From: Halichondria panicea | Lineage: Eukaryota; Porifera; Demospongiae; Suberitida; Halichondriidae | Assembly: GCF_963675165.1 (NCBI RefSeq) | Contig: NC_087377.1 | Coordinates: 10,774,632-10,838,631 of the forward strand | Reading direction: 5' to 3' | Length of the DNA: 64,000 bases | In this document: one piece after another, positions 3,534-45,508 of the stretch | Layout: each line of letters starts with the position of its first letter | Position numbering within the stretch: the stretch's first letter is position 1 | The notes under the pieces: model-generated | Told to the model about the DNA's origin: nothing | Databases searched by the model: none | What the model saw: only the letters and a program-made list of their open reading frames with translations | Made by a program: the position numbers and the translations under genes

Positions 3534-3770
3534 ATTGGAGGAAAATGGAGGAATGCATTCTAGAGACACTTCGAGTCTGGTACAAATAATCATTATATAG
3601 AGTTTAATTATTACTGCATGCATGCACATGACTTGTATGCTGCAGTTGATATCATAGAGTCCGATATTCTAGACTATAATTATAGTGTATATTAATTAAT
3701 TATTATAGTGAAGATTAATTGGAGGAAAATAGAATAATGCATTCTAGAGACACTTCGAGTCAGGTACAAG
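3534..3770. repeat. Short direct repeat pair (3534-3586 and 3718-3770)
   Basis: Two copies of about 52 bp containing GCATTCTAGAGACACTTCGA are separated by about 130 bp and differ at only a few positions. Confidence 0.75.
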
Positions 3771-17270: not shown

Positions 17271-17361
17271 ATGGCTTGTTTTATATTAAGCCTGGTTCTC
17301 CTCCTTATCTTCACTATTTCCGTACCTCAAATTGTAGAAGCGCAAGCTTTAGGAAGAACAT
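17271..17361 (+). CDS. First exon encoding a signal peptide, rest of gene not found
   Basis: ATG at 17271 starts MACFILSLVLLLIFTISVPQ and continues IVEAQALGRT, a textbook signal peptide with a cleavage site probably after VEA or AQA. The exon ends in phase 1 at a consensus donor, GTAAGTG, at 17362. A TATA box and an NRF1-like site lie just upstream, so this looks like a real transcription unit for a secreted protein. No plausible second exon was recognised downstream; MITEs begin at 17718. Either the remaining exons are short and Cys-rich and were missed, or the gene has been truncated by transposon insertion. Confidence 0.55.
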
Positions 17362-24567: not shown

Positions 24568-25915
24568 ATGGTATTTATTATTATTATTACTCTGGCAGCC
24601 ACTTCAAATGGCAAAGATTTCTACATTGGATTCATGCAGAATCTTGGCGGAACAGAATTTACATCTTTGCGACTGCTGCTTAGTACTGCTGCTGACGAAG
24701 CTATGTTCGTAGTTGAAACTAGAAGTGAAACTATTCAACAAGGAACTGTCACATCTGGGAGTTCAATTTCAATTGAAATTGATCACTCTTTCCAAGTAGC
24801 ACAAAGTGATTTTCGTGATAGAGAGAAAGGGATCCACGTTTATACTACAAACAATGAGAGTATTCTTGTCATTGCGGAAAATTTTGTTTCTCCCTTTAAC
24901 TATGGAGTTTTTCTGGCTTATCCCTGCTTAATATTTGAAACTGAAAGTGGCTACGAGTACTACATCATCTCAACTGAAGCATCTGACAACTTTCGAAGTC
25001 AAGTCTTGATAGTTGGTTGTGAAAATGATACTTTAATCTCAATTATACCCTCTCAATCTGTTTCCTTACCAACAGACATTCATTCTCAAACTGAGAGTGC
25101 AACCATTTCTGTTGATCCTGGTGCATCTCACAATGGAACTTTCAACCAAATGCAAACCCTCCTTTTGATCAGTACGGAAGATCTCACAGGGACAAGGATA
25201 ATATCCAATAAACCTTTGACTGTGATTGCTGGTCATGAGTGTGCGAGTGTACCGCTTTCTGCTACTGGCTGTGAGCCATTTGCTATTCAGGTTCCCCCTG
25301 CCATCACTTGGGGATCAAGTTTCCTTCTAGCTAGTTTTGCTGGAAGAGAAACTCAGTCGGCGTATAAGCTAGTTGTTACCGAAGAGACTACTTTTGTAGT
25401 TACTTGTGGCGATAATTCTCAGGGAAGTACAGTTACTGATAGTTTTCAGTTTAGTTCAGATATGTTTTGCTTCTTGCACTCTTCAAATCCAATACTCTTG
25501 GTACAGAAAGCTACTGGTGGAAGTATCGATGGTATTGGTGATCCTGCCATAGCTTTAGTTTCACCTATCGACCAGTACATCAACAATGTTGCATTTCTTT
25601 CTTTACCATTTGAGTCGAACTACATCAGTGTAACTGTCTCAGCTGAGCACTTTAATGCTTCGAGTATCTTGTTTAATGGTGAAGTAATTAACTGCGAATG
25701 GATTCCAATCTTTAATAACTCAAATTCAGAAGTCCCAGAAGGATATGGATGCAATACAACAGTAGTCTGTGGAAGTGACATGCCCACACAACATGTTGTA
25801 TCTCATTCGGATCCAGACGGACGTCTCTCTGTACTGGTGTATGGATTCACTGTAGATGAAGGATATGGTTACGCCTATCTTGCTGGTCAGGATATTTCCG
25901 TTACAACTGATGATA
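24568..25915 (+). other. Exon 1: signal peptide and IgGFc-binding-like N-terminal domain
   Basis: Residues 1-449. After the signal peptide comes [11 protein letters not shown], then a beta-rich region with the family landmarks [20 protein letters not shown] (about residues 209-228) and [13 protein letters not shown] (about 243-255). These correspond to the DltGt-i-s-kPv-vfsGh and pPv-twG-f blocks of IgGFc-binding protein N-termini. Many N-x-S/T sites suggest glycosylation. The domain is encoded by a single long exon without introns, unlike the rest of the gene. The forward frame runs on 56 bp past the donor at 25916 into the intron. Confidence 0.8.
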
Positions 25916-28900
25916 GTAAGTGTGCTGCGTATTTATGCTACAATGTGTACTTATGCTACAATGTAATTTAAAGGTGGTGATGTTGTCTTCACGACACCTG
26001 GGTCTGTCCCTTATTTTTCCATTGATGGAGCTCCTGGGGTTATTGATCTGGGCAGAGTTTCAGACACCTCTTCTGGTCCAATCTATATTCCAAATGGTTT
26101 AATTTTTGGAAACCATCTGTTCACAGCTGCTTTTGTGAGTGGATATAACTTAACATACTATTTGTGTGACATTGTAAATTATATAGGTGAATGAAAATGG
26201 AGTCATTTCTTTCAATGAACCATGGATGTTTTCGTACCCTAATGATTTCCCCACAAGATCTATTTGGACAAGGCAAAGAAATGTCATAGCACCATTTTGG
26301 AGTGATAATGACATTCGTCTAGAAGGGGTGGTAAGGTACACTTCGTACTGTAATATCTCCAACCATCCAGAGTGCAATCACAATACCGACACATATCAAC
26401 CCCTCCTTGATGTTGTAAATCGGTATATTCAGAATGATGTTGTAGCTGAAGGCAATTTTTTTGTTGGAAATTGGATGCTAATAGCTCAATGGGATCATGT
26501 ACACCCTAGTCCCCATGGCAATGAGACTCAGAATATGGGCTTCTCCAATTTAGAACTAAACAAGGTATGTGGTTTACTTAATTTACAAACGTTTGAGACA
26601 CTTACATTGTCTTACTCCAGACAAACACCTATCAAGCTGTTGTGGTTACCAACATCACTCATTCTTTTGCACTCTTCACCTACATCTGCGGGGAGATCCA
26701 ATGGAGTACATCAGGGACAAAACAGGAGGCTGTCATTGGCTATAATTCTGAGGGACAGTTTTTTTTCAACTATCGCTTATCAGGATACCCATCTGTTGGT
26801 AATGATGTTTCATGTTCAACTAGTTCGGTGAAAAGAAGAAAACGACAAAGTTCCAACGAAAATACAGCAGGGTTTGAGATGCCTACTCAAATGGAGTTGC
26901 AAAATCTTTTTGATTTATGCACTAAGATTTATAAAAAGGATGTATTAGAATACACAGGATCTAGTCCAAGTGCGTCTGCTGATATGTTAGAGCCATGCCC
27001 TCCGACACGAAGCCAAGCTGATGAGGATGGTGCTCGTTTCCGACTTCAAATCGACCGCCCTGATTGCTATGTGTCCATGAAGCCTGTTACACAACGGCTA
27101 TCAACTGTTGGCCCGATTTCACCCACTCAACAGTGCTGCTTCAACAGTGATGGGTGAGCGTGTTTGCTATAATAATGTATAGCTACACATGCATGTATAT
27201 TGTACGATAATGATGGTCACATTGTGGTCTGTGGTCTGTTCTGTGGAATTTATAAAGACCATGCATGCATGTATGCAGGCTTTATGCAGGCTTTTAACTG
27301 GAGTCCTTACATAAGATTGTACATAATTGATTCATATATAAATTTCGATGATGTGCATGCATACTAATTGTATACACAATTCTAGATAAGGGCGGCCTAT
27401 CATATATCCTTCCTAGTGCTGAGTAGTAAAGTGTACTTATCATTTACTATACAGGGCTTTAATAACAAGTGGTGTTGGAGCTGGAACGTTATTAATTCAA
27501 CATCCTTTAAGAGATCCTGATGGCTATATTGAAAATAATGCAGCAGATTCAACTTTTGGTGACAAGACATTCCGAGACACTTGTTGCGATGAGAGGTTAA
27601 ATGGTACTCAGTGTAATCAATTCATGAATAGAAGACCAAGTGACAACTCAAGTGGCTATACACCACCTAGTATAGGTATGCAACTTGCATCAAGTACACG
27701 AGTGCCTAATCCCTATAATCCATATCACACATGTACCACTGCATGGCACACACGTTATATGATTAAGAGTGCAATATGGGATTATAATGGCACCCATAAA
27801 CAGGGCCGTAGATTAATTGCTTAGGTTTGCAGGGGTGGCAAAATAGCAGCTGAAAATGTGTACTAAAAAAAGATCATTCATATCCTCTGAGTATATATGG
27901 CAGCTTCCAACTTGCTGTGGCACCAACTTAGAGCAACTAAAACAAGGTAGCTTGAACTATAGGAAGGTGCTCCTGCTTCCTATAGAGGCACAGTGAAGCT
28001 CAGAATTTTACCTAAAAAAAGTCATAGCTTATTCTCAGCAGTCAGCATGCGCATCAGATAGCCCTGCCCACATCTCAATTTCGTGACATCATTCTAATCA
28101 CTATAGCATTGATCATGTGCAGATCGGCAGATCTGGAATGCCAGGGGGGCCAACTGCCCCCCCCCCCCCGCTGCCTACGGCCCTGCATAACAAGCATCAT
28201 TGGCTTAACACTCAGCTATATATATACGCCGAGTGCTATTATAACCTTGCTATTGCTTGTTGTACTCGTGCTATTAATCCCTTATTGCACAAGAAAATCC
28301 TAATCGTTATGACAGAGCAGCCTCCAAGTATATGGTTTTTTCCAGATTTACACGGATTTTTCTCTTCTAATAATTATGGTTATACGGAATTAAGTGCAAA
28401 ACAGATATAGACATGTACTGCCTGTACTTGTGACCTTTTTATCAGCTTAAAGAATAACTGGCCTTAGTTTTGTGAAATGGACAGTGAAAAGCGTCTATAG
28501 ATCTAGTACCATGCATCACTACAGCTGTAGTAACTCTATATGTCCTATGCTGGTGGTAAGTCTGATACAGAAACACATGCTCTAAATTCAGCTCTAAATT
28601 TATTTAGTCTTGCTTGCCCCGCCATTTAGTGAAGGGGCGGGACAAATTATAAAGCCATTCGCAGCATTTCATCTCATTTCCATGTTTTTGATTGAAAATC
28701 AGTATTAAATACGTAGCTTCCCTAAAAACACAAGTTTCTACTTGCATGGAGGTTCTATTATGAGGAAGTTCTCTGAGCAAAAACTAAGAAGCTTGAATTT
28801 GCACTTTGGTACACGCGGCCTTTATTCGAGATACGTGTTTACACCGAAGTGATCCTAAAAAAAGTAGAATTGTATGATTGTGGTAGCTGCAAGAGTGAGA

Positions 28901-31900
28901 GAGTGCTGCAAGGCTCTACTGATGCAGCAGCCACACTTTTTAACAACAATCGGTTAATCATTTCGCACTCCTTCAGTTTCCCTGTAATTCTGCCTGCATG
29001 CATGAGCAAAATCATAAGTTAGGATTTATTAGGTGTTGAAAATGTACAATTTTTAACATTATACGGTATAGTTCCTTGCATGAAGCCTCTATATGCTTCT
29101 TTGTTTTTAAACAATGTGACATTATTATACCAACATTTACCTTATTATATACCTCCTGAAAAAAATGTAACTGTGGTGTGTATAGAGAACCTTGCATGGT
29201 TGCCATTTTTGAGTGCCCGGATCGAAAATTGGGCCCCAGGTAGCAATTATGCTAGTAGAATAATAGGCACTCAATTAAGCTCAATTAGCATTGAGCATTA
29301 TTCTAGAATAATAGGCATAGATTTTGACATAGTGGTGTGGTTTAGAACAAATGGGCGTAGTTATTGTGTTACCATAATTATAGCTAGAAATTTCTGCGGC
29401 CCAACAATTCTGCAAATTCTGCAAATGAATGAGTAAACGCAGAAATATTATCCGCGAATGCTTATTAACCACGCTTAATTTAACAGTTGAAAGTTCAATT
29501 CGCAGAAATATTATCCGCAGAAGGTATTTTTATAGCTATTCGCAGAATTTTTAGACCACAGAAATTTCTAGCTATACAGTAGTTAGAAAAATACACTACC
29601 ACATGGCCTGTGCTAATGGCATCACCAAGTGTTAGAGTGACTCACTGTTCTTAGAATTCATTTAATGACAGACGAACTCTCGCTTTTCGCGATTACATTA
29701 ATTGAGGCCTCAGTTATGTTATAGTACAATAGTAGACTCATTTGTTGATCGTCATAAAACTGAATTTATTTCGAGAATAATGGGTGACAACAAAAGAATA
29801 ATAGGTAGACTCTCTTGGCATAAAAGAATAGTAATTTTTCTAGCATAATTGGGAAAAGCCTAGCCCCAGGGCCGTTTTTAATGATATTATAGTGACATGC
29901 AGTTCTCTATAATTATAATAGTTAGACACTGTTTAGGAAGTTTCTACATGATTTAGAAGCCCAAAGGGCTGGTTGTAGTATCCCGAACGCAGTGAGGGTT
30001 CTACTAGCCCCGAGGACTTCTAAATCATGTGGAAACTTCCTAAACAGTGTCTAAGCATTTTAGATCATAGCAACCATGAGTATTTAGCCAATCAGATTTG
30101 AATGTTCTTATCTAATCTTTGCTACATGATTTTCTAAGTGAAGTACATAAGTAAGTACATGATTTTCTAAGTAAGTAAGTACATGATTTTCTAAGTTGGA
30201 TAGAACACTTCCTTTAGCCAATCAGATTGCAGTATTAATGGCAAACATGATCTAAAATTTATTATGTATGGTAACGTGAATAAAAAATGTAAGGAATGTC
30301 ACATGAATAATTGTTAGTGTATGTACACTTAGTTAATATAATAATGTCTTATATCTATGTTTAGACTTGCTAGAACATTCTAGAACTGTCTTGTGTTCAT
30401 TGTGACCATGTGCTTAGTCAGTCCATGATATCTTTCTTATTTGTCAATCTGAGAACTTGCTCTATCTAGCTAAGTCATATTGCAAGCTTTGCACAATAAT
30501 GACCCGTGTCCAATTTCCTCTGATATACCATTCTTTAATTTCATGCAGGTATCGGCTGGGGAGATCCACATTATACAACATTTGATGGTCTATTTTATGA
30601 TTTTCAAGGACAAGGAGATTTTCACTTGTTGCAAGTTATACCCGAAGGGCATGATGATTCAATATTTTCTATTCAAGGCCGTTTATCGACTGAACCATTT
30701 GAATCAGAGAGTGTTGGATGGACATTGCATGTTGGACTAGCATTTGGAGCATCAGATAATGCTTTTGAGGTATAGGTAGATCCTGTATTAGGTATAATTA
30801 TGTTACGATAATTATGGTGCTGACGTATTGGTATAGACAAGTGTATAATTATATATGGATGTCTAAATTTGATCTCATTATCTTGAAATGTGGTGGTTGC
30901 AGGTTGGTAAGGCACCAGGATTCAGACTAATTCAAACCAGGCCGGGAACTTTTGCAATGGAGATCAATGTGACAAGCCATAATTCAATATGGAAATCGCC
31001 TAATGGAGACGTGGAAATACAATACACGCAGCCACAAAATAATCAACCCGTTATACTGAATGCTTACTTCTTCAATACTGGAATTCATCTTTTGGTGAGG
31101 CGCTATCCATTAAATAATTGGATTCCGGGACTTGATCCGTTATTGTATGACTGGATAAACTTTGAAGTTCGAGTGCCTTGTAGTTATTCCATGAGGACCT
31201 TTGGCCTTTTGGGCAACTTGGATGGAGACTCAACAAATGATCTTTATAGACGTGGAAATACAATACCTTTAAATTTTCCAGGAAGTCTAACTGAAGAGCA
31301 GCTGCGAGAAATTCTTCAAGACTCATGTAAGTTTGGTTGTTTGTATCCTCTAGTACTTAAAATTATATGATTTTCAGGGATAGTACAACAAGGTGAAAGC
31401 CTTTTTTCTGTTCCTGCTCGTCGTCGTAGACGCCAAGCGTCAGAATTTCAGCCTGTTTTCTTCGAGAATTTAAACTTTACAGATGAGCAAAGACTGATTT
31501 GTGACAATAATCGCCAATGCCTGTTTGATTTAGTTGCTTCTGGACAGCTGGACCTTGCTATGACCACTCTTGACCATGAAAAACAAGCTAATATGACAAA
31601 CGAGCTCTTAAGTGAGTGTAAATATGCTATGTATATGTAATATAGTTGTACACCATAATTATAGAGTGATCGTATCTATATAATTATATGAGTGTGCAGT
31701 TATAAAAAAATATGTGTTCACAATGGTTTATTAACCATACTCCCTATTATTAAATTATCTGTGTGTGCATGGTCTTACTAATTTTAGGAGACAATTTAGA
31801 AAACCAATGATGCATGGAATTCATTTTTCTGTATAGTCCTATAGCATCTATTCATGCACCTTATAGTGATCTATTCATCGCATCAATAGTGACTATTGCT

Positions 31901-34900
31901 GGCCATGCAGTGGGTATGTATATGTGATTTGTACTTGATGTTCATATAATTATATATACACATCAGTGCATGTACAAGGTTAACTGTATATACTATAATA
32001 ATACCATTCTCTCACAGACAATTTCCCACCTATTATAACATCAGAGAATACAAGTTACAAGGCTATTTTGGGCCAAGAATTGGTGATTTATCTGAATGTT
32101 GAAGATTCTGCTGATAATTTTACCGTGGTTGTACAAGGAGGCCTACCTGATAACTCTGTTTTGGAAAAGCTGTCAGAAGGAAAATATGTATTTCAATGGA
32201 CCATGAATAAAATCGTAGCTGAGCCACTAAAGTTTTTGGCTAATGACTCAAAAGGTGCTGCCTCGATACTTGCTGTAACTCTAGAAATCTGTGCTTGTGC
32301 CAATGGAGGGAATTGTACTCTAGATGGCTTACTGAGTTCTAACAACGAGGTCATTATTCTAAATTGCTTATGCATGAAAGGTAATATGTAATTATAATAA
32401 CAGCTTAGGTGTATATAATTATATATATAGAGTGTGTGTGATTCTAGGTCGTTTGCTATAGTTAGCTTTCGTGTTAATTGCATGTCTGCATGCATGACTG
32501 TGTATATAATTATAGCTTGAAAATATTCACTCTTCCTGGCTGTACGTATAATTATGTTTATCTGGCTTTCCATATAGCATTTTCTGGAACTTTCTGTGAG
32601 GAGGATCGCAATGGGTGCTCAGAGATACAATGTTTTGAGGGGGTTGAGTGTATGGACGTTCCTGCTCCTGGAGTTGGGGCGGTTTGTGGGGATTGTCCTC
32701 CAGGCTATACTGGAGACTCACTCAAGTGTTATGGTAATATATAATGCATCGTTATACTGATCTAAAGGAGTATTATATAATATAATAATATGTAATGAGA
32801 AACAGTAATAAGTTGATTTGCAAATCAACGGAGTAAGTGTTGTGTTCTCAGATATTGACGAGTGTTTCCTTGATGCAACTCTATGTGAGCAAGTATGCAC
32901 AAATACTGATGGGGGGTTTGTGTGCTCTTGCATGGAGGGTTATCAGCTACTTGATGGGAACCAGTGTGAAGGTATAGAAAGAACCAAAAAAGTGGTGCAG
33001 CTATATATAATTATATGATTATTCTTTGTGCAGATATTGATGAGTGTACGACAATTAATAATTGTCAACAGGTGTGCACGAACACTGAGGGCTCATACTC
33101 TTGTAGCTGCAGTGAAGGGTTTACATTGGCAACAGATGATAGAAACTGCACTGGTGCGCATTCATGAGTGTGTATCTTAGAGTTAAATCTATTAATACAA
33201 TTATTAAGACTATATTATTATACATTACATCTGTAATTAATGTCCACAGCGGATGTGTCATGTGATGGAGCCTGTTCTTTCGCATGTGCTGTCATAGATG
33301 AACAAGAATTATGCTATTGTCCTGCTGGATTCCACCTTGAAGAAGTGACAAGAACTCAATGCAACGGTTAGCTGAGTATAATAATTATATATATACACAC
33401 ATTAGGCCATGCAAAGTCAATTTGTAGTTTCTCAGGCCCTCACGCAAGGAATTTGGCAGCTTTCCAAATATCACGTGACCTCAAATTAAAGGCACTAAAA
33501 AAAAAGTAAAGGACAAATTTGTATGGTTTTTATCATGAATATAAATATGAACTTTAAATTATGCTTATTGAGAAGTCGGGGGTGTGTTTTCAATTGAATA
33601 TTATTAGGCCAGGCAAAGTAGATTAGTAGTTTCTCATCACTGAAAATTGATGAGGCCATGAGATCATTATTCATTATTTATTATGCTGACAGTGCAATAT
33701 TTTATTACACAAACAAACATTATGCCATCAGTAATTGAACTTTTCGGTTTCTACTATAATAATTTTGCCTGTGGTTGAGTGTAACTCATTAATTATAGAC
33801 CACTCCCTGATATACAATGGGTGTAGACCACACCCCAAAAATAATGAATAATGAACTTTTGGGGGGGGGGGAAGTGATGAGGGGCTGATGAGAAACTACT
33901 AATCTAGTTTGCCTGGCCTATCATTAATATTAAATTTTATCAATTGCCTCAATCCGCTTGCTATTTTGGAATAATAGCGAATTACAAATTGATTGTGTGA
34001 CCTTAATTCTATAAACAGATCGAGATGAATGCCTAATAGAGAGCAATCCTTGTGAGCATGTGTGCACCAACAACGAGGGCTCATTCAGCTGCTCCTGTAG
34101 AACTGGCTATCAGCTCCTCAATAATGGCAAAACATGTGAAGGTAGATTGTGATGGTTCAGTAGCAAAGTTCAAGCTTGCATGTATGAGGTATAGTTTTGA
34201 AATTTGAGATTGTAGTGTTACTGTATTTAGTGCTGATCACATGATCTCCAGCCAATCAGCTTATCTGAAAGTAGTCAGGTGACCATGGATTAAATAACTT
34301 AATCCACACTTAAGTGTGCTTTAAGTTGGTTTGTTAATGCACACTTTTATCAAACAATCATAATACAAGCAGATTGAATCTGAATCTCATCATAATTATA
34401 ATAATAATACAAGCAGATTGAATACGTACACAAGCAAAGCTGAAAAGTATTAGAAAGTTGAATGTTATTGTTTCGACTTGTTTCATGTGTACTGAATTGC
34501 TGACTTGACCATAGCATCACTTTTTTGTCTGGAGAAATAGGCTCAGCTTGCTTCAAAGATGTACGTACCTGTACCTAAGCAAGATCCATATAATCGTTTC
34601 ATCAAAGGTGCTTTGAATATCATAGCGTTCCAAAAGAGCAAACCAGATACTCATTGCCATATAGTTTGCGCACAAAGTTTCCCATCCAGTAAGCCAGATC
34701 AACTGGAGGCATATCGATCCAGTAGTGGGATCGGGACTGTTGGTCAGCAGGAGAAATAAGTCGAGAACATGCCCAGTCAGTCCAGATAGCTTTAGATCGT
34801 ATCTCCTTTTCCTTTGCATCAGTTACTGGATCTACAAACCTACTAAAACTTGCTATTACGTCTAGCTAGCTAGCTAGCCACCAGCAACTGATTTAAAATG

Positions 34901-37900
34901 TAGCTAGATCTAGCTGCCACGAGGCTAGAGCTCACGTGACAGCACTAAATCCTTTAGAACACACCTAGCCAAGTCACGTGTTTTAATGCTGGTGCACTCG
35001 GATGGCCTCTCGGTTACGTAATGCACTCGGCTGCGCCTCGAGCACCACGTTAACCTCGAGGCCATCCTCGGCACGCAGATTAAAACACTTAATCTTGGCT
35101 AGGTGTGTTCTCATATAGTATAGCGACTAAGCAAAGGTTTTTATTGTATAGCTATTATTATATCCTTTCAATTGGTGATTTATATTATGTGTGCAGACAT
35201 TAATGAATGTTTTCAAGCTGCTCTCATTTTGACTGATCTCTGTGAGAATGACCCAAATTCCCAATGTATCAACACTGAAGGATCTTTTACTTGCACTTGT
35301 GCGCCAGGATACACTCTACAAAATGAATCCTGTCAACGTGAGTAATTTTTATCACACATTGATGAATAAAAAATTGTTGTCAGGGGTATAGGCCTTGGTA
35401 GATTTTGCTAGCATAATTTTAGAAAAAATAGTACTACTGAGCATAAAGAATAATGGTGGGAAAAATAGTCTGACTTTGAAAAGAAAAATAGATATAAACG
35501 AAAAGATTTGTAAGCAAAACATGCTTCTGTTTTGTTTCATTCAACAGCTTTATACACGCATGTAGAAGGCTAGCTACAGCTGGCTGTTAATATGATATGT
35601 TATACGATTCAATGTATAATACAACTTGGTTCTATGTACATGACGTCATCCCTTTACTGATTTTATATTACTGTGACTCAAACACTCACTCACTCAGACT
35701 CCCAGAAATCAGTGTGAATAACATATTTTAGAATCAAAGTAGCAGCATAACTGAGAAAAATAGGCGGATGAAAAATAAAAATAGGTAAACAATCGAGCAA
35801 AATCTGCCAAGGCCTATATATCAGGGGGACGAATTTTGTGGTCAGTGAAGGCCATGGATATACTGTATATATATAGTGTGTATATTTCGAGGGTATAAAT
35901 GTTTGCGGTTTTTGCTGATCAAGCATGTACCGCGAACATTTATACTCACGAATTTAATATCGCATGCATGCATGCATGCTGCAGAAAGGCTGCTATTCCG
36001 TGAAAATTAAATCTGCGAAAACCTTTCTAACAGTCAATCCGCGAAAGTGTGTTATACCCTTGAAATATACCCGCTATACGGTACTCTATAAAGAATTATG
36101 GCAATAATACATGTCTCAATAATTATATTGATCGATCTGAATGGAGTCTATAATTATAATTATATAGCTGTATAGCTATACATTCTTCTTGAATGTATTA
36201 TATCACAGCAAATGTATTCTCAGGTACCAGTGAGTGTTTCCTTGATGCAACTCTATGTGAGCAAGTATGCACAGATACTGATAGGGGATTTGTGTGCTCT
36301 TGCATGGAGGGCTATCAGCTACTTGATGGGAACCAGTGTGAAGGTAAAAATACTGAGAAGAAAGTAATTATGCCTCGGGTGCGCATGCGAGGTATACGGT
36401 AATGTGTTTTGTCAGTCTGTCTGCCCAGGTGCATTATAAGGCATGCATGTCCAGAAACAAAAAGAGCTAACGTTATACACAGTGAATAGTATTCAATAAT
36501 CCAACACAATAATTGTATATCAGTTCGGACTATAGAAACCACTCCCTTTCTTTTGGGAAAGGGATTGGCCAGTTGCTGTGTTGAGAGTTGTCCCAGTGTG
36601 TGAAGACTGAATCTCACGCTTCCACAAGAATACAAACGTCACAAATGCTCGCCCACCTGCTATAACTATTACTGCACACATTATTATAAGCCTCGAGTAT
36701 AAACACATCACTGGTGGTCTGTTACGTATTTTGTGGTTTATATACAAATTGTATTCCAACAGGACAACTCTTAATTAATTAACACGGCAGTTCTTTTCCC
36801 AAAAGAAAGGGAGTGGTAGTGGTTTCTAGTCTATAGCTACGATCAACTTCAAGAAGTGTAAGTACAGTGTCATGTGACTGGATCTCCACCCTCACCTATA
36901 GTAATTGCAGAATTTACCACCCACACGTGATAAAACATTCCAATGCATGCGATGACGTCAGGTATAACAAATTAATTCCATGTTACTTTAATTTGGACAG
37001 TCCTTAATGGCCCTATAGGTCCCTAAGTGTCTGTCTGTCTGCATGTGTAGACTGCTACAGCTGCTCAATGATAAATGAAGTACAAGTAAGAGCTTCTATA
37101 TAGGCTTCTAGTCACGTTTCCTTGGATAGATTTGCAAAATAATGCTTCGTTCTCAACTTACGGCTAGGTTTGCTTACTTTATCAGATTGGGTCTTCAAAC
37201 TCGTGTGTAACAAAATCTGTTGATATAACTTAGCCATTCTACTTAGTAGTCAGCTCTGCACTATAGAACGCTATATCTATTATAGTATATATATAGCTGC
37301 AACAGAGAGAAAAAAGCTGCAAAGCCGCACTGTTTCATGGCTTATACTTTCGGCATCTTTTTAACAACAATAATGGTCATCATTTCCCACTCTTTTTCAC
37401 CATTCCCTGCATGCAAAGTAATATTCAATTGAATTGTAACTGTACATTGTACATTGTGTATATATATCAACATTTCTGTAGCTGCTTGGCATTTACTATT
37501 GAAGTACATGCATGTAAGAGCTTCTATAGGCTTTTAGCAAGGTTTTATTGGATTTCGATTCGTGGATTTGCAAAATAAAGCTTTGTTCTTGAGTTATGGC
37601 TAGTTGTGCTGACCTTGGCAGTCTCTTCAAACTTTAGCCTCGGTCCCAGGCCGATTTTTTTTTAATAGAACGAAGTTGAAAAATACGGCCTGGTATTGAT
37701 TGTATCTGGGCGTGGCAGGAACCGGAAACCAAAGCAGAGAGTCTTCACACTTTGTTTCCTGTCATATTTCACCGTATAAGTTTAATACTGTAATTTAGCT
37801 CCGTGTATGCTCTTAAGTAACTGAAATCTAGCCATAGATTATCTAGCTAGCTAGCTACTGCAAGTTTAAGTTGTTCAGATTAACGTATACATTGTATGCT

Positions 37901-40900
37901 TCACAAGAAGGCCCCACTCTCATTGCAAAACAGGCCCAGCTCTTGTCAGAAGGAAGAAACGTCTTTGCCATGGTTTTCAACATGGTATGGCAAGTCTCTT
38001 GCTTTCACTCACTGCCCTTTGTGATGGACTACAAACTAGTAGGTAGGACCAACACTGCCGGTGTCACAGCAGATACAGTCCGGGCCAAAAATGTGTCCGG
38101 CCGGACCCTAAACACTAGCGGAAATGGTCCAAACTGATTACTTTTTAGCAGAAACTGTCCGTCTATCAATAGGAAGTAATACACTGCCAAACCACCCATT
38201 GGCTAACTTCACTTTACAGCAAGGAAGTGAAAAGTCAGAGTCAGAGTCAGATATTAAAGCAATACAATCTGAATAAAATATAAGTCTAGTTACAAATCAT
38301 GAAGATTGCAGATTCATGAATACTTAATGACTTGTTATCATCAGTCTTGTCAGGGGGAAAAATTATCACAAGACCACGCATCACTCTAGGCACCGTCGAG
38401 AACTGTGATACAGGTCTTGTGGTACCACTCTTCGCATTTTGCACATTCTATCAGCTACACTCCCTGCTTCTTTGGTCTTGAGTGGAAGAGCTTCTGCCCA
38501 TTTGGAGTGGTAGTCAGTACATGTAATGATGTACTTATTCCCACAGAGTGGGCCAATGAAATCATTACTAATTCTGTGCCAGACACTGCTGACAGGCACA
38601 CAGTTTTTTTAAGAGTGAGATTGGCTCGTTGGCAGCTATCACAAGTCTTGACATAGTTGTCTTGACATCATTGATCATTTAATTCCAGTAGTAGTCTAGA
38701 TCTACCTGTATAATATGCATGCATTTCATTATGAGCTTTTTCATACAACTGAGAGTGTAATCACAACCTTAATTAAATAATGCCTGAGCTTAAATTATCT
38801 TCTCCCTGGTTTTACTTTTCCCAAAATGCCCAGCTAGCTTGTCTGAATGACAAGCAGTTATGATCCTCTTCTTTGTACTACCCCTGATCCACTACCTCTC
38901 TCTGCCACCATGAGTACATGTATAGTAAAGAGCTTAAATTATCTTCTCCCTGGTTTTACTTTTCCCAAAATGCCCAGCTAGCTTGTCTGAATGACAAGCA
39001 GTTATGATCCTCTTCTTTGTACTACCCCTGATCCACTACCTCTCTCTGCCACCATGAGTACGTGTAGTAAAGAAGGCCATCATGAATTCTGAACTTCTCC
39101 TTATGCTTCTCTTGGCCCCTTCACTTGCATTATGCTACTGTTCTATCTACGGTTTATTCCAGACAATATACGCCACACCAGACAGGAAATGCGACGCGAT
39201 CCCTGTCCGGCACGGACCGTTTCTGCGCGCAAAATTAGTCCCCCGGACCAAATTCTGGCCGGACTTTATTTCCTGTGACACCGGCCCTTGTCGACAGGTG
39301 TGTTGTTTTGGCAAATCTCTCTGCTTATTGTTTTTTGGTTCCTAACCACGCCCAGATACAATCAACACCAGGCCTACACAGTAAAAACAGATTCGTTATA
39401 ATAACATAAAACATCTCAAATAAAATGCATCATTTGAAATTTAATGTAGAAATGACAGAAATTTATATCATTTCTACATTAAATTTCAAATGATGCATTT
39501 TATTTGAGATGTTTTATGTTATTATAACGAATCTGTTTTTACTGTGTAGTTGTCAGCCTAGCTAGAAACAACTCGGCCTGGAATCGAGGCTATTCAAACT
39601 CGTGCATATAGTAGTTATTCTACGTAGTAGCTAGCTCTGCACTAGAGCGCTATATATATAGCGCTAGCTATTAGTGGGCTGCAAGAGTGAAGAAAGAGCT
39701 GTAAAGCTCAGAGCCTCCAAGTAAAAACTTTTCTTTTCAGTTTAATAAGCTCATTATTCTGTATTTAATCAGTATAAACAATGTAAAAGAAAAGGAGTAA
39801 AAAACATGGAAATGAGATGAAATGCTGTTTAGTGGCTTATGATAGTCTCATTTGCCCTGCCCCTTTAATAAAGGGGTGTGGTGAGTGAGACTTAGCTTTA
39901 CAAGATATTTATAGCTCAATATAGAACAGCCATGATAATTTTACTTTAAGCATCATTTTTAAAACAGTTATAATCGATCATGTCCCACTCTTTTGCACCG
40001 TTCCTGCTATATAATGCACTGTGCTCCCAGACTCTTGCAAGCATTTTCATTCCACCGAAGCATCAGCACTCACGGTACTTTCATTTATTTAGTCCAGCTA
40101 GCTTGATCAATGAATCATACATGTATGCAGATGTTAACGAGTGTATGGGGATCAACAATTGTCAGCAGGTGTGTACAAACACTGAGGGTTTATCATTATT
40201 CTTGTAGTTGCATGCAGTGAAGGGTTTTATATATGGTGGAACCTGTATAGTAGTATATGTGTGCAACTGCATGCATGCTATTTATGCACATTATTGCAAT
40301 TCGGCCGGTCAGTATAATTTTGCATGTATAATTCGTACACTCATTAGGCCTTGAATCCTTGATCGAATATGTACGCCGGCATAATAATTTAGAGCATATA
40401 GGTGCTCTCGAGCATCAAGAATTATGCTAGCATAATAGGCTGATTTTCAAGCATTAAAATTAATAAGCAAAATAGGAGGATTTTCAATAGTTGGGCGTGG
40501 CTATATAAGTAAAGTTTTGAATGCACTGTGAAAATAGTTCATTGAGTTGCATGCGCAGTAGCTCAGAACATGCCCACATTCACACCTGGCAGTAATAAAT
40601 CTAGTTTTTATGATAGCTAAATAAAGTCCAATCAATGTTGAAAATTGACTAAGCCCACTTTTGGTGTTACTAACCCGAGGTGCGCCGTGGCGCCACGGGT
40701 TATATATTAGTCAGTCAGTCAGTCTGTCTGTCGTTCTGTGTATTCTGAGTCTACTCACCTAGATGATATAGCACTGTGTTTGTACCATGCCTCACCTCAA
40801 CACAACAAGTAGTAGTTTTAAATTAGGCAGATTTTGATGTTAACTTCGTTGTTGAATAAAAGCGAGCAAAAGCTAAGAAGCTAAAAAGCTCAAATCTGCA

Positions 40901-43900
40901 CTTTGGCCTAGATGAAATCTACACGCGGCTTTGACTCGAGACTATAGACTCACTATACCTCAAATAAACGCCGAGGGTTTACACTTTAGTGCTCTAGTCA
41001 GGGGCGTATAGCTACCATTGTTTCCTGGTTGCCCAGGAGCTTGTTGATAAAAATGGGCAGGGCTCCTATAATTGAAATCAAGCAGCCCTACCCATCTTTT
41101 CTGCAATATCCACATGGCTGCAATATTAGTCTTCAAACACCATGAAGCTGTTTATTTGGCTTTGTCTCAGCTAGCTATAGTGTCTTCTTTAGATTTACCT
41201 CAAACGTTCTAGCAATCAATCCTGCTCCAGTATTTCTCAGACTTAGCTCTAAGAACGAATTTATTCAGGAAGTACAAGTTTAGATCACAATGCAATCCCA
41301 GCCACATAAAACCTCAGGTAAATGACATTTAATTGTGCTCGGCTAGACAATACATAATTAACACCTGCCTTTTAGTACTATAGCTAAGTACGTTAGAACA
41401 GAGATTGAAGAGAGAGGGATATGAAACTTGATGACGTGTACATACAATCCGTGTTGCCTAAAATGGGCGTGGCACATTGTCTTTACTGCAAGTTCTATGT
41501 AAAATCATGTAAAATACTTTGTGGGACTGTATCTCTGGACTTGCTGCTACATATAGAACAAAGTTGATATTAAATGCAAGAGTGGACCTTTGGGAAGTGT
41601 AACAGCTCATCAGCTAAGAGCCAAGAGACAGCTTGTTCGATCACTTCAACTTTTTTGACCTCTTGCACTTGTCCTGGAGCAAAATTTTGCAAAATTGTAC
41701 ACTAAAAATCGATTATACTTTCAGCATCAGGGCGATCTAGCCTTTGAGACAGGCACAAGTACGTAGAATACATAGCTAACATTAAAACTCATCACTGAAC
41801 CATCTTATGAAAACCAACTTGCTTTCTGCTACAGTCCCACAAAGGCTAGTATAGCCAATAAACCAGGGAATCTGGCGTTCTGGATTTTATTGCCACCAAA
41901 TATATTTTAAAACAATCTGTGGCTAGTCAGTTATATGATCATAATTCTTCAAGTGAGTCATCCAGCTTCCCATGGGCCTGTTTTTTTTTATTTACAAATT
42001 AATCCGCCATTTTTATAGCAACACGGAGTGCCTAAACTTTTTACTCTGATTTACATTGAGCACATAAGCTCACGTGACTAGTTTCATATCCCCTTCTCTT
42101 CAATCTCTGGTTAGAACATGTAACTTTTTTTGTATGAATGAACAATGAGCAGTAGGTGTGCCCCAATTAAAAGAGTGTGGTACCTGAAAGTGGGCGTGGC
42201 TTCAACAATTTCGCGGCGCTGCCAATTTTTCTTTGGAAACCTCTGTCTCAAAAGTCAAAAGTCTGGCTCTACACCTCTGCTAGTATATAATAGGTGACAC
42301 TAGTACTTAATAATAGGTGTTGAATAATAGGATGATTATTTTGGTACACTAGCTGTTAGGCCATAGATACTATATAAACTACTACAGTTGTAATTTATAG
42401 TATCTATGGTTAGGCCATGCAAAGTCAATTAATTTTGTTTTCTCAGGCCCTCACGCCTGGAATTTGGCAGCTTTTTTAAATATCACGTTACCCAAAATTA
42501 AAGGCACTAAAAGAAAAGAATTTGTATGGTTCGTTTGTCATGAATATAATTATTTATGCACTTCCGCTTATTGAGAAAGTTAGGGGTGTGTTTTCAATTA
42601 AAATTCTATATCATTAAATTATTATCATTAATATTTATCATTCTGCTTGCAAATAATAGTACAAATTGACTTTGTGTGTAAATCATTTTATGTTTTACAG
42701 ACACTGATGAATGTATTCAAGCAGCTCACATTTTGATTGACCTCTGTGAGAGTGAACCAAATTCTCAATGTATCAATACTGAAGGATCTTTTACATGTAC
42801 TTGTGCACCTGGATATGTCTTGCAAAATGAGTCTTGCATTATACGTGAGTACAGCTATCGAATACATTGTGCAAGAATGATATTCATATCAATATTATAG
42901 TGATCAGGAATGAACCCAAGCCCAATGTTGATGTAATTATTGTGGACAGTCAAGCAACACTGACACCTGACACAGTACGTATAAGCTTGACAATTGTGCT
43001 ATTATAATTATAAAATAGTCAAGAAAAACGTTTGCAATGTGAAAGTTGCTATAGTTAGCCAGGGGGAAGCACCAAAAAACATGGAAAGCTGTACGTCAAT
43101 CCATCACAAAGTCCTTCACATGCACATTTTCTGCACAGGCTAATTAACAATGCTAATGATAATTCTTGACATACACAGTCCAATGTTTACCACGTACAGA
43201 ATGTAATTAACTATTAAGTGGACTATGTTTGTTGAAGTACATAATTATTTATAATGTTGTTAACATACATGCATAATTATAAGGTAATTGTCCTTAAAAT
43301 GTTCATAGATTGTTCTTTATGACGTTGTGATGGATTGACGTATAGCTCTCTTTCACTTTCTTGTTTCCATGCTTTTTGGTGCTTCTCCCTATCCAATCCT
43401 AGCCACTATCATTATAGCGAATGTTTTTCCCAGACTAGTCCCCTCTTTTATTTGTAGAGGAGTAAGTACAACTTCAAGAAGCAATGAATTAGTGGAAGTT
43501 CAAAAAGAGAAGACAGGGCAGGAATGAGCATAGCCACGTATAGCACAACATATTTGAGGCACCCAAATTTCGTGGAATGGCCTCTAAAAACATTTTGTTG
43601 AATAAATGTTTGGGTTGACTGCATGCTTACCGGAAACACTCTCAGGTCACGCCTTTAATTTTTGTACGTTATAGCAGATAATTCTAATTAACAAACAATT
43701 TTCGGGGGCTTAATTTTTGCTATTTTCTAGAATTAAAAATCCTCTACGAAATCCTCCACGAAAATTGTTTCACAAAAATAATAACCATAAATAGTAAAAC
43801 GACCACTAATTGCATTTGCGAAACAATCGATAGGAAGCTACAGGCTGGAACACCCACAAACATGACACAATTGGCCATTTGGTGTTTACTCACAGCTAAA

Positions 43901-45508
43901 CTACATGCTTCTTACCCAATCTGAACCACCTCTAGAGTGGGTTGGCTAATTCAGATTAGAAACCGAATTAAGCTTATTTACACAAATGCAGAACCGGATT
44001 CTAACCCGGATTAAAGACCTCGTGTAAATGTACAAAAACTAAATGTGCAGCCAGTTTCAAAATTTGGTCTGGTCTTTTCCTGTAAAGATTTTAATATAAG
44101 TGAACATACGTGAAACATTACTAAAAATCAACAAACGCTCTGCCAACCCTAATTTAATTACCCAGTATATAGGTTGTATAATACTTATTGTGGTCACGCA
44201 CACAATAGATTGTGCACGGTACTGTGTATATCGGCAGCCGAGGGTGATAATCATCATGCACTCAGATATCAGCCTTAGAAACACTCAGTCTGGCAGAAAT
44301 GAAGCAAGTTAAGCTTGATAAAGCAATGCTCAGAAACAGCCTCAGTGCTTAATTTTAGCACTATACTGCATGCAGGCTTCACTAGAAAAACTAATCATAA
44401 TTATACGTTTTGATTTCATAATAATAATTATAGCAGCTATAACTTTTGATCTCGTTGTAACTATGAGTTAAGTGCCGTTTCTTAGTTACAGCAACTGCAA
44501 TAAGCTAGTACATTATTACATCATAACGTCCTTATTACTATGTAAGTATTATAGCTTCCACTATAATTATGCGTGTGATCTCATTAAACATTTTGTAGTT
44601 CACACCAAATCGCCAAGAGATATTCAAGACAACAACAGCAGTAGCTGTTAATAATTATTGCAAATCTATATCCTGCAAGTTAATCCTTCCGTCGGGAGAA
44701 GTTCAAAGGTCTGTTAATTATTTATAATTGGCATAATGATGGGTTTCTTTCGATATCCATGGAGGGGCACCATGTAGCAACATTATGATACGCTTTCTAT
44801 AGCTAAGACTAATTGATGTCATACATTGTTCAGATGTCATATATCCTCAGATTCACTAAACTTGTAGATCTGTAATAATTATTTTTTCTGATTCCCTTAT
44901 TGCTATATCAAAATCGTGATGCACTTACTTTAATTAGGATTACTCAACTTGTTATTTCGTCAGCAAATGTTGCCATTCCTACTTCTCTCATCAAGCAAAA
45001 TAATGGAGGGTATTTGGAATTTGTTGTGTATGTCCAAGTGAACGGAACAACCTATCTCTTAAAAGATCACCTGAAGTCGGCAATAATGGTATATTCACTA
45101 ATTAACAATTTTACTACTTCTTTAGTATGTTTTTAATGCTTATATAGAATGCTGTAGAGCTCTATAAAATGAACGGATTCAGTCCGACTTTGGAGGCTGC
45201 ACTCCCTCCAACTGTACTGAACAGTGCAGCAGGACTCATTGGAGTCATAGTCGGAGCTGTGATAACACCTGTCATTTTGGCAGCAGTAATTATTCTAACT
45301 GTCATGTGGTAAGTGAAGCTTTATGTTTATTACTCAACAGCAAATTTTATTGAATCTGGGAATCACTGCATTATAATTATATTCGTTTGCTTTCAGCTGT
45401 AAGCATAAAAAAAACAAGAAGAAGAATCTGTTTGAGATGGACGATGTAAAGGTCGTTGTAAATCCTTTGTATGAAGACATAACTATTGTAGCTAAGCTTA
45501 GGAACTAG
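24568..45508 (+). CDS. Large type I receptor: IgGFc-binding-like, NIDO, AMOP, VWD, EGF repeats, TM
   Basis: I read 22 exons: 24568-25915, 25974-26134, 26187-26564, 26621-27153, 27455-27675, 30549-30769, 30903-31326, 31378-31611, 32018-32380, 32578-32733, 32852-32971, 33034-33153, 33250-33366, 34019-34141, 35197-35337, 36224-36343, 42701-42844, 42901-42974, 44599-44708, 44938-45088, 45148-45308, 45397-45508. All junctions are GT-AG and every phase matches, giving 5,532 nt and 1,843 residues. The NIDO-AMOP-VWD-EGF-TM core is that of MUC4, SUSD2 and Mesh-type adhesion proteins, and the N-terminal IgGFc-binding-like domain is an addition. It probably acts at the cell surface in adhesion or recognition (inference). 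The ATG at 24568 directly precedes a short signal peptide ([14 protein letters not shown]); an upstream first exon spliced at the CAG near 24597 cannot be excluded. There is no AATAAA close by; an ATTAAA lies at 45632. Confidence 0.9.
25974..26842 (+). other. Exons 2-4: nidogen-like (NIDO) domain
   Basis: About residues 465-690. Landmarks are [30 protein letters not shown], the NIDO signature [14 protein letters not shown], and [11 protein letters not shown] followed by FFFNYRLSG. The introns within it are only 52-58 bp (25916-25973, 26135-26186, 26565-26620). The domain is followed directly by a dibasic cluster KRRKR (residues 700-704; 26831-26845) that fits furin cleavage. Confidence 0.9.
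26990..27675 (+). other. Exons 4-5: AMOP domain
   Basis: From [15 protein letters not shown] (Cys at residue 755) through [35 protein letters not shown] and the terminal RRPSDNSS. The Cys pattern (CP...C...CC...CC...C) and the closing RRP are those of AMOP domains, found in MUC4, ISM1 and SUSD2. Intron 4 (27154-27454) falls right after QQCCFNSDG. Confidence 0.9.
28313..28757. mobile_element. MITE with CAGAGCAGCCTCCAAGTA ends, in intron 5
   Basis: Same family as 18619-19060. The interior shares ATACGGAATTAA and GCATTTCATCTCATTTCCAT. The end at about 28750 reads TGCATGGAGGTTCT. Intron 5 (27676-30548) is 2.9 kb because of this and neighbouring repeats, including a partial CAGTGGCGTAG-family end with a C13 run near 28151-28170. 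Confidence 0.75.
29381..29575. mobile_element. Small MITE with TAGCTAGAAATTTCTG ends, in intron 5
   Basis: TAGCTAGAAATTTCTGCGG at the left and CACAGAAATTTCTAGCTA at the right, with the interior repeating CGCAGAAATATTATCCGC. About 195 bp, non-coding. Confidence 0.75.
29922..30250. repeat. Hairpin plus tandem repeat in intron 5
   Basis: TTAGACACTGTTTAGGAAGT...GATTTAGAAG (from 29922) is mirrored by CTTCTAAATCATGTGGAAAC...CTAAACAGTGTCTAA (to 30054), arms of about 45 bp. Just after, TACATGATTTTCTAAGTAAG is repeated three times (30122-30197). TTAGCCAATCAGATT occurs at both 30090 and 30218, suggesting a larger decayed inverted element. Confidence 0.7.
30549..31611 (+). other. Exons 6-8: VWD domain with GDPH site
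   Basis: It begins [20 protein letters not shown], with G-D-P-H at residues 885-888 (30560-30571), the motif at which MUC4 and MUC2-type VWD domains are cleaved autocatalytically. Then follow FHLLQV, the [20 protein letters not shown] strands, and [18 protein letters not shown], the classic G-L-x-G-N-D-G-D motif. Exon 8 carries a five-Arg run (31419-31433, residues 1110-1114) and ends with the [16 protein letters not shown] block typical of this VWD subtype. Confidence 0.92.
32018..32380 (+). other. Exon 9: beta-sandwich-like linker and first Cys-rich motif
   Basis: Residues about 1174-1295. The part starting [20 protein letters not shown] resembles cadherin- or HYR-like strands that often follow VWD in such proteins, but I cannot assign a family. 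It ends with CACANGGNC and CLCMKG, the halves of an EGF-like module completed by exon 10 (32578-32733: [19 protein letters not shown]). Confidence 0.6.
33402..33925. mobile_element. Nested MITEs in intron 13
   Basis: GGCCAGGCAAAGTAGATTAG (33607) and CTAATCTAGTTTGCCTGGCC (33899-33918) are the ends of one element. The left part (33402-33545, TTAGGCCATGCAAAGTCAAT) belongs to a related sequence that recurs in direct orientation at 42410-42600, ahead of exon 17. The shared intronic sequence supports a duplication that included intron DNA. Confidence 0.7.
34957..35111. repeat. Inverted repeat with CACGTG motifs in intron 14
   Basis: GAACACACCTAGCCAAG and CTTGGCTAGGTGTGTTC are perfect inverted ends; the interior has CGAGTGCA-type GC-rich blocks. 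A related half-element is at about 49990-50085 (GCAGCCGAGTGCATTACGT, TTAAAACACGTGACTTGGCT). Confidence 0.75.
35387..35818. mobile_element. MITE with TATAGGCCTTGG ends, in intron 15
   Basis: Partner of the element at 2245-2678: TATAGGCCTTGGTAGATTTT and AAAATCTGCCAAGGCCTATA. Non-coding. Confidence 0.75.
35861..36083. mobile_element. MITE, ATATACCCGCTATACGGTA family, in intron 15
   Basis: TACTGTATAT and ATTTCGAGGGTATAAATG at the left, mirrored by CCTTGAAATATACCCGCTAT and ACGGTA at the right. It ends about 140 bp upstream of exon 16. Confidence 0.65.
36532..36829. mobile_element. MITE with AGAAACCACTCCCTTTC ends, in intron 16
   Basis: TAGAAACCACTCCCTTTCTT and AGAAAGGGAGTGG..GGTTTCTA are inverted ends. 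The interior shares GCTGTGTTGAGAGTTGTCCC and GAGTATAAACACATCACTGG with the element at 49472-49769. Confidence 0.8.
37020..37400 (+). repeat. Dispersed repeat (TTGCAAAATAATGCTTCGTT family), copy
   Basis: Carries ACTGCTACAGCTGCTCAATG, TTTGCAAAATAATGCTTCGT and AGTAGTCAGCTCTGCACTAT in family order. A second copy starts at about 37495, so two lie in tandem. Confidence 0.65.
38380..38665 (-). pseudogene. Retroelement-type integrase fragment
   Basis: On the minus strand, about 38650-38590 encodes [17 protein letters not shown], the second half of an H2C2 zinc finger. After a one-base frame change comes [13 protein letters not shown], then [20 protein letters not shown] and KEAG. This is the start of an integrase core of the Ty3/Gypsy or Ginger type, with the first two Asp of the DDE site visible (DFIGPL and TDYHSKW). 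The core breaks off after about 70 residues. There is no reverse transcriptase nearby. It is non-functional. Confidence 0.75.
38786..39072. repeat. Nearly perfect 144-bp tandem duplication
   Basis: Units 38786-38929 and 38930-39072 both begin GAGCTTAAATTATCTTCTCC and end near ATGAGTAC(A/G)TGTA..GTAAAG; they differ by only a couple of bases plus a two-base indel. Very recent duplication or an assembly artefact. Confidence 0.9.
39374..39549. repeat. Perfect palindrome with about 80-bp arms
   Basis: From CTACACAGTAAAAACAGATT through ATTTAATGTAGAAATGA the sequence is mirrored perfectly, after a 12-base centre (CAGAAATTTATA), to AATCTGTTTTTACTGTGTAG. It sits just inside the right end of the composite element. 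A transcript would form a long hairpin. Confidence 0.92.
40131..40235 (+). pseudogene. Dead EGF exon inside intron 16
   Basis: A good acceptor (GTATGCAG) precedes [20 protein letters not shown], matching exon 12 ([13 protein letters not shown]). After that, insertions shift the frame into TAG at 40205, while the sequence CTTGTAGTTGC..AGTGAAGGGTTT of the old exon is still visible out of frame to about 40235. No usable donor follows. Since exon 16 and the exon at 42701 share phase 1, splicing can skip it and keep the protein intact. Confidence 0.85.
40240..42409. other. Rest of intron 16, repeat debris including an inverted pair
   Basis: GTTAGAACAGAGATTGAAGA and GGGATATGAAACT (41390-41432) are mirrored at 42066-42120 by AGTTTCATATCCCC and TCTTCAATCTCTGGTTAGAA, bounding an element of about 720 bp. 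A small hairpin (CCATAGATACTAT / ATAGTATCTATGG) lies at 42361-42409. No coding exon was recognised here. Confidence 0.55.
42701..42844 (+). other. Exon 17: last EGF module, copy of exon 15
   Basis: [20 protein letters not shown] and onward differs from exon 15 at only a handful of residues. It has an intact D-x-D-E calcium motif and phase-1 boundaries. It closes the second EGF cassette. Confidence 0.9.
42901..45508 (+). other. Exons 18-22: juxtamembrane region, TM helix, cytoplasmic tail
   Basis: Residues 1642-1843. Exons 18-20 encode an extracellular segment of no recognised family ([51 protein letters not shown]), possibly SEA-like by position only. Exon 21 contains the transmembrane helix [20 protein letters not shown] followed by LTVM. 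Exon 22 is a 37-residue tail: [11 protein letters not shown] stop-transfer, then [18 protein letters not shown], in which NPLY (45461-45472) fits an NPxY endocytic or PTB-binding signal. Stop TAG at 45506-45508. Confidence 0.85.
43015..43438. mobile_element. MITE, GACTAGAAAAACATTTGCAA family (older copy), in intron 18
   Basis: TAGTCAAGAAAAACGTTTGC and the right end AATGTTTTTCCCAGACTAG are inverted, with subterminal GTCAATCCATCACAA / TTGTGATGGATTGAC. Same family as the perfect copy at 55913-56470, but diverged. Confidence 0.8.

Follow-up and report, generated by a model that had tools for sequence, protein, structure and literature searches.

A predicted MUC4-like membrane protein with an IgGFc-binding head in the sponge Halichondria panicea, and the occurrence of this head before other receptor domains

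Introduction

Most of what is known about the IgGFc_binding domain comes from a mucus protein of unclear role. In FCGBP, which is secreted, an N-terminal IgGFc_binding domain is followed by many VWD repeats with GDPH. MUC4 has EGF domains and a short tail. In SUSD2 and Mesh, NIDO, AMOP, and VWD form a core that is accompanied by a membrane helix and by a Sushi domain or other parts, and neither protein is known to have an IgGFc head. In Halichondria panicea, a single receptor gene joining an IgGFc-binding-like N-terminus to a MUC4-like core was predicted within a stretch of 64,000 nucleotides (hereafter the window; C1:10774632–10838631 of the 131 Mb assembly). Does this region hold one gene, and is the union of head and core peculiar to it? 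Here we examined the gene model, its paralogs, and the occurrence of the head throughout the genome.

Results

Gene structure and domain composition

We rebuilt the gene at 24568–45508 (+) by hand from the raw sequence. The model has 22 exons and introns of 51 to 6,357 bases, all GT-AG, and the junctions 25915/25974, 27675/30549, and 36343/42701 were all present in this independently rebuilt version. The joined frame of 5,532 nt has phases in agreement and its sole stop at the end, giving 1,843 residues, which bears out the exon number, phases, and length of the original prediction. The features of the gene are as follows.

Table 1 Features of the window gene (positions in the window).
17271–17361 (+): candidate first exon, signal peptide MACFILSLVLLLIFTISVPQIVEAQALGRT; phase-1 donor CAT/GTAAGT
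24568–24598 (+): earlier-proposed start segment; more probably intronic (3′ end)
24599–25915 (+): IgGFc_binding head exon (PF17517); Pfam E 9.4e-48 (ORF), 3.3e-46 (full protein); phase 1 at either border, provided that the acceptor at 24597–24598 is used; phase-1 donor ATA/GTAAGT
25974–26134 (+): exon 2, linker to NIDO; splice model; homologous exon in L001 and L003
26187–26564 (+): exon 3, NIDO half 1; Pfam NIDO 3.5e-13
26621–27153 (+): exon 4, NIDO half 2, RRKRQ (aa 701), and AMOP start; Pfam NIDO 1.6e-9
27455–27675 (+): exon 5, AMOP end; excised AMOP 20.6 bits, aligned paralog L001 34.6 bits
30549–30769 (+): exon 6, VWD start with GDPH (aa 885); Pfam VWD 1.4e-8
30903–31326 (+): exon 7, VWD end; Pfam VWD 0.0031 when the exon is scanned by itself (18.3 bits against a cut-off of 22.9)
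31378–31611 (+): exon 8, C8-3_MUC4 and RRRRQ (aa 1111); Pfam C8-3_MUC4 1.3e-8
32018–32380 (+): exon 9, paralog-conserved extracellular segment; identity 52% to L001, 51% to L003
32578–34141 (+): exons 10–14, EGF stalk, five phase 1-1 exons (32578–32733, 32852–32971, 33034–33153, 33250–33366, 34019–34141); splice model, EGF_CA/cEGF
35197–36343 (+): exons 15–16, EGF stalk (35197–35337, 36224–36343); splice model, Pfam
40126–40227 (+): decayed EGF exon in intron 16, frame broken; 76% identity to the exon 12 region
42701–42844 (+): exon 17, EGF; splice model; 81% copy of the exon 15 region
42901–45088 (+): exons 18–20, juxtamembrane module (42901–42974, 44599–44708, 44938–45088); exons 19–20 kept in L001 and L003
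45148–45308 (+): exon 21, transmembrane helix; hydropathy; homologous exon in L001
45397–45508 (+): exon 22, basic 37-residue cytoplasmic tail with NPLYEDI, stop TAG

A Pfam scan of the joined protein confirmed the predicted IgGFc_binding-like N-terminus at residues 127–426 (158.3 bits against a cut-off of 25.6; profile positions 11–297 of 297). It also matched NIDO at 502–694 (E 4.7e-27, 95.6 bits, cut-off 25), VWD as a single stretch from 883 (E 2.7e-11, 44.5 bits, cut-off 22.9), C8-3_MUC4 at 1134–1170 (E 1.8e-6, 27.6 bits, cut-off 25), and a run of EGF from about 1387 to 1640, with six stretches of EGF_CA and seven of cEGF. A hydropathy scan showed a single strongly hydrophobic stretch, at residue 1783 (2.94 over 21 aa). 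Thus, the NIDO, VWD, EGF, and transmembrane parts of the predicted core stood, and its MUC4 layout was upheld, including the C8-3_MUC4 match. The AMOP part stayed below the cut-off: it was absent from the full-length Pfam scan at E up to 0.1, and the excised segment reached 20.6 bits (E 5e-4) against the required 25 bits. Because the window protein aligns across this segment with the paralog L001, whose aligned stretch exceeds the cut-off at 34.6 bits, AMOP in the window gene is clear only by homology. A PTS-rich mucin stretch was not found anywhere in the protein (at most 34 P, T, or S per 100 residues), and the protein was therefore filed as MUC4-like by layout and not as a mucin.

GDPH opens the VWD of the window protein at aa 885 and was present in all five paralogs examined. 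The furin-like RRKRQ at aa 701 has its counterpart at the same site in L001, and none was seen in L003, L004, L007, and L008. A second furin-like site follows the VWD (RRRRQ at aa 1111) and occurs also in L001 and L003, and as RVRR in L004; none was seen in L007 and L008. The cytoplasmic tail has NPLY at aa 1829, for which the L001 counterpart, read from the L002 sequence, is DNPFQ. A conserved endocytic or PTB site was ruled out, since NPxY is not kept in L001. Modeling of the window head alone with AlphaFold2 gave a mean pLDDT of 32.4 and was useless, and neither the head alone nor a 15-row head profile matched a solved structure at E up to 1.

Several further elements were observed in the window. 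Intron 16 contains fragments on the minus strand (38384–38667) that look like a retroelement integrase by eye, with a weak Integrase_H2C2 match (0.028) in one of the two stretches, and a direct repeat of 146 bases that is 98% identical (38786–39073). Beyond the gene, there are an exon for a PARP catalytic domain (50594–51055, minus strand, E 2.6e-9) and an IS630/Tc1-type transposase frame (52900–53796, minus strand; HTH_Tnp_IS630 1.1e-4, DDE_3 9e-5).

Start of the gene

The start originally placed at 24568, which adds 10 residues up to 24598, is probably wrong. The heads of L001, L003, and L004 lie in an open frame without an upstream Met that begins at a phase-1 AG acceptor, and the homologous AG of the window lies at 24597–24598, within the previously proposed exon 1. 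Therefore, 24568–24598 is probably intron, and the ATG at 24568 probably intronic. The top-scoring acceptor of the window head is another, phase-2 site; the phase-1 site at 24599 was picked by homology.

A candidate for the true first exon lies at 17271–17361 and encodes a peptide of classical signal-peptide appearance. Its score of 18.5 was the highest of the 20 forward-strand candidates in the window that combine a signal peptide with a phase-1 donor, the best candidate on the reverse strand scored 18.2, and 358 kb of other loci held nine candidates scoring 17 or more, so that the candidate may be due to chance. The 12.6 kb upstream of the head contained four signal-peptide candidates versus seven on the reversed control. 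Joining 17271–17361 to 24599 would give 23 exons and 1,863 aa with a putative 7.2-kb intron; between the two there are five plus-strand ORFs of at least 70 aa, none of which was recognized by eye. A strict signal-peptide scan found none within 6 kb above the window head and none above L001 or L003, and one candidate each above L004 and L027. Signal-peptide exons with a phase-1 donor were present just upstream of the heads in L004 and L012; within 3.2 kb, none was found above L001 and only a weak candidate above L003.

Paralogs and the one-gene model

Paralogs of the same layout were found on C12 (two) and C3 (one), and others lie in a distant array on C1. At eight further loci, nine including the window gene, NIDO follows a head on the same strand at a distance of no more than 1.1 kb; five of the eight were traced into the core by alignment. 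In tblastn, L001, L003, and L004 were collinear with the window protein over the head, NIDO/AMOP, VWD, C8-3, and the EGF stalk, and in L001 the collinearity reached the membrane exon. For L007 and L008, it ran from the head as far as EGF, with one more EGF-like match lying between the head and NIDO. In L003, a Kunitz domain (L003:2752–3000, minus strand, 1.9e-18) was observed beyond the exon 20 homolog, adjoining a PTTEEPTTAKP-like repeat.

Since exon 1 contains the complete head, the region could in principle be two adjacent genes, one for a secreted IgGFc protein (exon 1) and one for a MUC4-like receptor beginning at exon 2 or 3. However, the 58-base intron after exon 1 is GT-AG and phase matched, the intervening exon has homologs in L001 and L003, and the head-NIDO pair recurs on one strand at the nine loci. 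The two-gene model was rejected on the phase-matched junctions and this recurrence, and the collinear paralogs together with the recurrent pair make it very unlikely. We conclude that the region most probably represents one gene for a single-pass membrane protein, as read from its splice structure and homologs.

Divergence of the head and growth of the stalk

We compared nonsynonymous (pN) and synonymous (pS) differences between the window gene and its paralogs. Against L001, most exons are near synonymous saturation (pS 0.6–0.8 or more), the exceptions being exon 14 (0.14) and exons 11, 20, and 21 (about 0.4–0.5). The head showed a pN of 0.29 at a pS of 0.74, NIDO exon 3 a pN of 0.24, and the VWD 0.33–0.43, while stalk exons 10–12, 14, and 15 showed only 0.05–0.14 and exon 13 showed 0.23. 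The contrast between head and stalk was weaker against L003 (head pN 0.32, stalk 0.05–0.27). As judged from these paralog comparisons, the pattern is one of purifying selection with a faster-diverging head, not of positive selection.

The stalk grows by copying of exons: the region of exon 16 is 92% identical to that of exon 11, the region of exon 17 is 81% identical to that of exon 15, and the decayed EGF exon at 40126–40227 is a remnant with a broken frame. A repeat shared by two introns (33402–33598 and 42410–42602, 80% identical) was also observed, perhaps carried along with EGF exon copying.

IgGFc heads throughout the genome

A profile search of the 131 Mb assembly with the head gave 122 matches, 15 of them with internal stops. 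Merging pieces less than 600 nt apart left 115 loci, fragments included, of which eight were shorter than 450 nt. We then counted the heads that have a match to NIDO, VWD, 7tm_2, Calx-beta, or kinase in their neighborhood.

Table 2 Heads (of 115) with neighboring domain matches.
Downstream, same strand, within 20 kb and before the next head: NIDO 10; VWD 6; 7tm_2 at least 19; Calx-beta at least 10; kinase at least 1
Downstream, opposite strand: NIDO 0; VWD 1; 7tm_2, Calx-beta, and kinase 0 each among the matches listed
Upstream, same strand: NIDO 4; VWD 3; 7tm_2 at least 10; Calx-beta at least 1; kinase at least 9
Upstream, opposite strand: NIDO 1; VWD 0; 7tm_2 at least 2; Calx-beta at least 2; kinase at least 1

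NIDO is no more than 1.1 kb from the head in nine of the ten cases; in the tenth, L006, the distance is 8 kb and the assignment unsure. The values for 7tm_2, kinase, and Calx-beta are lower bounds because the match lists behind them are incomplete: they cover 150 of 164, 29 of 156, and 111 of 151 matches, respectively, with 150 of 227, 129 of 1,749, and 150 of 645 candidates scored. The upstream same-strand counts are as expected from tandem arrays.

Pfam identified the partners behind individual heads as 7tm_2 (L011, L012, and L065), tyrosine kinase (L015 and L016), SRCR (L005), Calx-beta (L013), Sushi (L009), and fn3 (L065); SRCR is very numerous in the genome, with 213 matches. The assignment of head and partner exons to one gene is putative at the 7tm_2, kinase, SRCR, Sushi, and Calx-beta loci. 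Three of the ten downstream stretches scanned first had no Pfam match (L012:2537–2821, L011:7080–7556, and L014:3156–3611), as had two of nine in a second set (L066:5061–5837 and window exon 20); L015:3562–3756 had sub-threshold matches only. GAIN, the Calx-beta of L014, and the 'Ig-like' appearance of L066 were assigned by eye only. L015 and L016 have the tyrosine-kinase domain further downstream of the head, in L015 with a single hydrophobic helix (3562–3756, by eye) between the two, and are candidate receptor tyrosine kinases.

To describe the borders of the head exon, we used 64 heads, namely that of the window and those of 63 further loci. The best donor at the head end was of phase 1 in 53 of the 64, phase 0 in nine, and phase 2 in two. 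The head start motif was present in 54, of which 38 had a scorable acceptor, with phase 1 in 33 and phase 2 in five, the top-scoring site of the window head among the latter. The other 26 comprise ten heads without the start motif and 16 starting at the edge of the fetched stretch; among them are the kinase-group loci L015 and L016 (no motif) and L022 (edge) and much of the group at C5:6–7.6 Mb (edge). These phase counts are not independent draws, since the copies are related. With varied partners behind it, the IgGFc head looks like a shuffled exon with phase 1 on its 3′ side. The head and core of the window gene had been regarded as the union found in one unusual receptor; this view was not sustained, the head being a widespread module before several receptor types.

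The heads form arrays at C1:14.6–17.7 Mb (51 merged loci, at least ten with a 7tm_2 match downstream), C5:1.96–2.10 Mb (eight), C5:6.0–7.6 Mb (12), and C11:2.15–2.31 Mb (ten), and some array heads have internal stops. NIDO exons form arrays of their own at C1:3.2–3.8 Mb and C5:3.27–3.55 Mb, with no IgGFc match directly in front; these are NIDO cores with other front ends.

Origin of the head-core union

In a quick tree of the 64 heads, those of NIDO genes were split into two groups, one comprising the window, L001, L003, and L004 and the other an array at C1:4.0 Mb. The head of L027 nested in the window group and is more similar to the window head (49% identity) than is that of L004 (43%); the exons downstream of it are fn3 repeats and 7tm_2 (L065). 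A single clade of the nine NIDO-gene heads was rejected in an AU test with 29 of the 64 heads and L027 omitted (p 0.0025). The corresponding test with L027 included (32 of 64 heads, p 1e-5) is unfair, since L027 is nested within the window group. The NIDO halves gave the same split, and one clade was rejected (p 0.0094) with 19 rows sampled from the 110 NIDO matches in the genome, leaving out the nested or long rows L006, L075, L076, L077, and L080; before the nested rows were dropped, p was 0.0018 (24 rows).

These results suggest that the IgGFc-NIDO union arose at least twice in this lineage; since the trees of the heads and those of the cores include potentially misleading long branches, we take this as probable and no more. 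A single union, with the two-group split as a long-branch artefact, is the less likely account, though one to be taken seriously: the stems are long, with about one to two changes per column, which is a warning of long branches meeting. Against it, the head tree and the NIDO tree, built from different sequences, both place the window group apart from that at C1:4.0 Mb, and L007 and L008 have the additional EGF-like match after the head and before NIDO.

Discussion

The window protein resembles MUC4 and the cnidarian mucin4-like proteins (PMC9080433) in having NIDO, VWD with GDPH, and C8-3_MUC4, together with an AMOP that is weak here, and it shares with MUC4-like proteins the EGF domains, one membrane helix, and a short tail. 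It differs from MUC4 in the IgGFc_binding head in front, the missing PTS-rich stretch, and a long stalk of calcium-binding EGF domains. With FCGBP it shares an N-terminal IgGFc_binding domain and a VWD with GDPH; unlike FCGBP, it has one VWD, NIDO and AMOP, an EGF stalk, and a membrane anchor. The NIDO, AMOP, and VWD core and the membrane helix are also those of SUSD2 and Mesh. Variation at the front has been described before, some cnidarian MUC4-like proteins having CUB, ZP, or FN3 there (PMC9080433).

Receptor models of H. panicea have been published in which NIDO, IgGFc-binding, Calx-beta, Sushi, and GAIN appear among the 'other domains' of pattern-recognition receptors (PMC8242945, Figure 1). 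That paper mentions IgGFc once, and the part of its text that describes the figure does not state the domain combinations; IgGFc heads on sponge receptors were thus already hinted at there. The available part of a GPCR study of Amphimedon describes diverse adhesion-GPCR heads and names no IgGFc (PMC4302439). Our search of the open-access literature found no mention of IgGFc with an adhesion GPCR, of the IgGFc-NIDO-AMOP-VWD layout, or of a head shared between receptor classes.

We propose, with a probability of roughly 0.6, that the gene encodes a cleavable, single-pass, MUC4-like protein for recognition or adhesion at the cell surface, belonging to a modular receptor repertoire. In this proposal, a shuffled head exon was joined, probably at least twice in the lineage, to a NIDO-AMOP-VWD-EGF core, and the resulting protein would comprise the IgGFc head, NIDO, AMOP, VWD, C8-3, the EGF stalk, the transmembrane helix, and the 37-residue tail. 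The chain may be cut after synthesis at GDPH in the VWD and at the two furin-like sites, and the pieces would remain associated; for human MUC4 too, PMC8660890 describes GDPH cleavage as putative. The EGF stalk would hold out the head, which may bind a surface or mucus glycoprotein or a microbial ligand. Signalling would fall to relatives in which a head of this kind precedes 7tm_2 or tyrosine-kinase exons. For the window protein, adhesion, capture, or co-reception is most likely, since its tail has no enzyme.

A tail without a signalling domain would also suit a structural adhesive of glycocalyx or matrix, the head of which binds mucus or matrix proteins without specific recognition. For oyster IgGFc-binding proteins, roles in mucus and larval adhesive have been discussed, IgGFc-binding sequences are reported from starfish footprints (both PMC6337334), and a coral matrix protein was already known to have the CUB, ZP, and FN3 segments seen in cnidarian MUC4-like proteins (PMC9080433). 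However, the occurrence of the same head before 7tm_2 and tyrosine-kinase exons suits sensing, and the head has diverged more (pN 0.29) than five of the six stalk exons (0.05–0.14) in the comparison with L001, less clearly so with L003. We therefore regard the structural role as a serious alternative, though distinctly less likely than recognition or adhesion in a receptor repertoire.

The large family of heads in arrays, 15 of 122 matches having internal stops, and the repeated joining of heads to different bodies could also recall a receptor for self/non-self discrimination (allorecognition), one of the roles first suggested for this gene. The paralog comparison speaks for purifying and not positive selection, at synonymous sites that are mostly saturated, and we consider this role improbable.

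Within the proposed surface recognition or adhesion, a combinatorial form may be suggested tentatively, in which one family of symmetric 1-1 head exons is dealt over several bodies: the MUC4-like tether, adhesion-type GPCR, receptor tyrosine kinase, SRCR, Sushi, and Calx-beta. If so, related ligands would be read out as adhesion, G-protein, or kinase signals, and the window gene would be a non-signalling tether or co-receptor.

Here a MUC4 core has acquired a novel N-terminal part, probably on more than one occasion, and a large family of receptors in which the head naturally sits on different bodies offers a setting in which to seek the ligand of IgGFc_binding. A mobile receptor head in a sponge genome, where no antibodies are expected, suggests that the original job of the IgGFc_binding domain may have been the recognition of surfaces or microbes.
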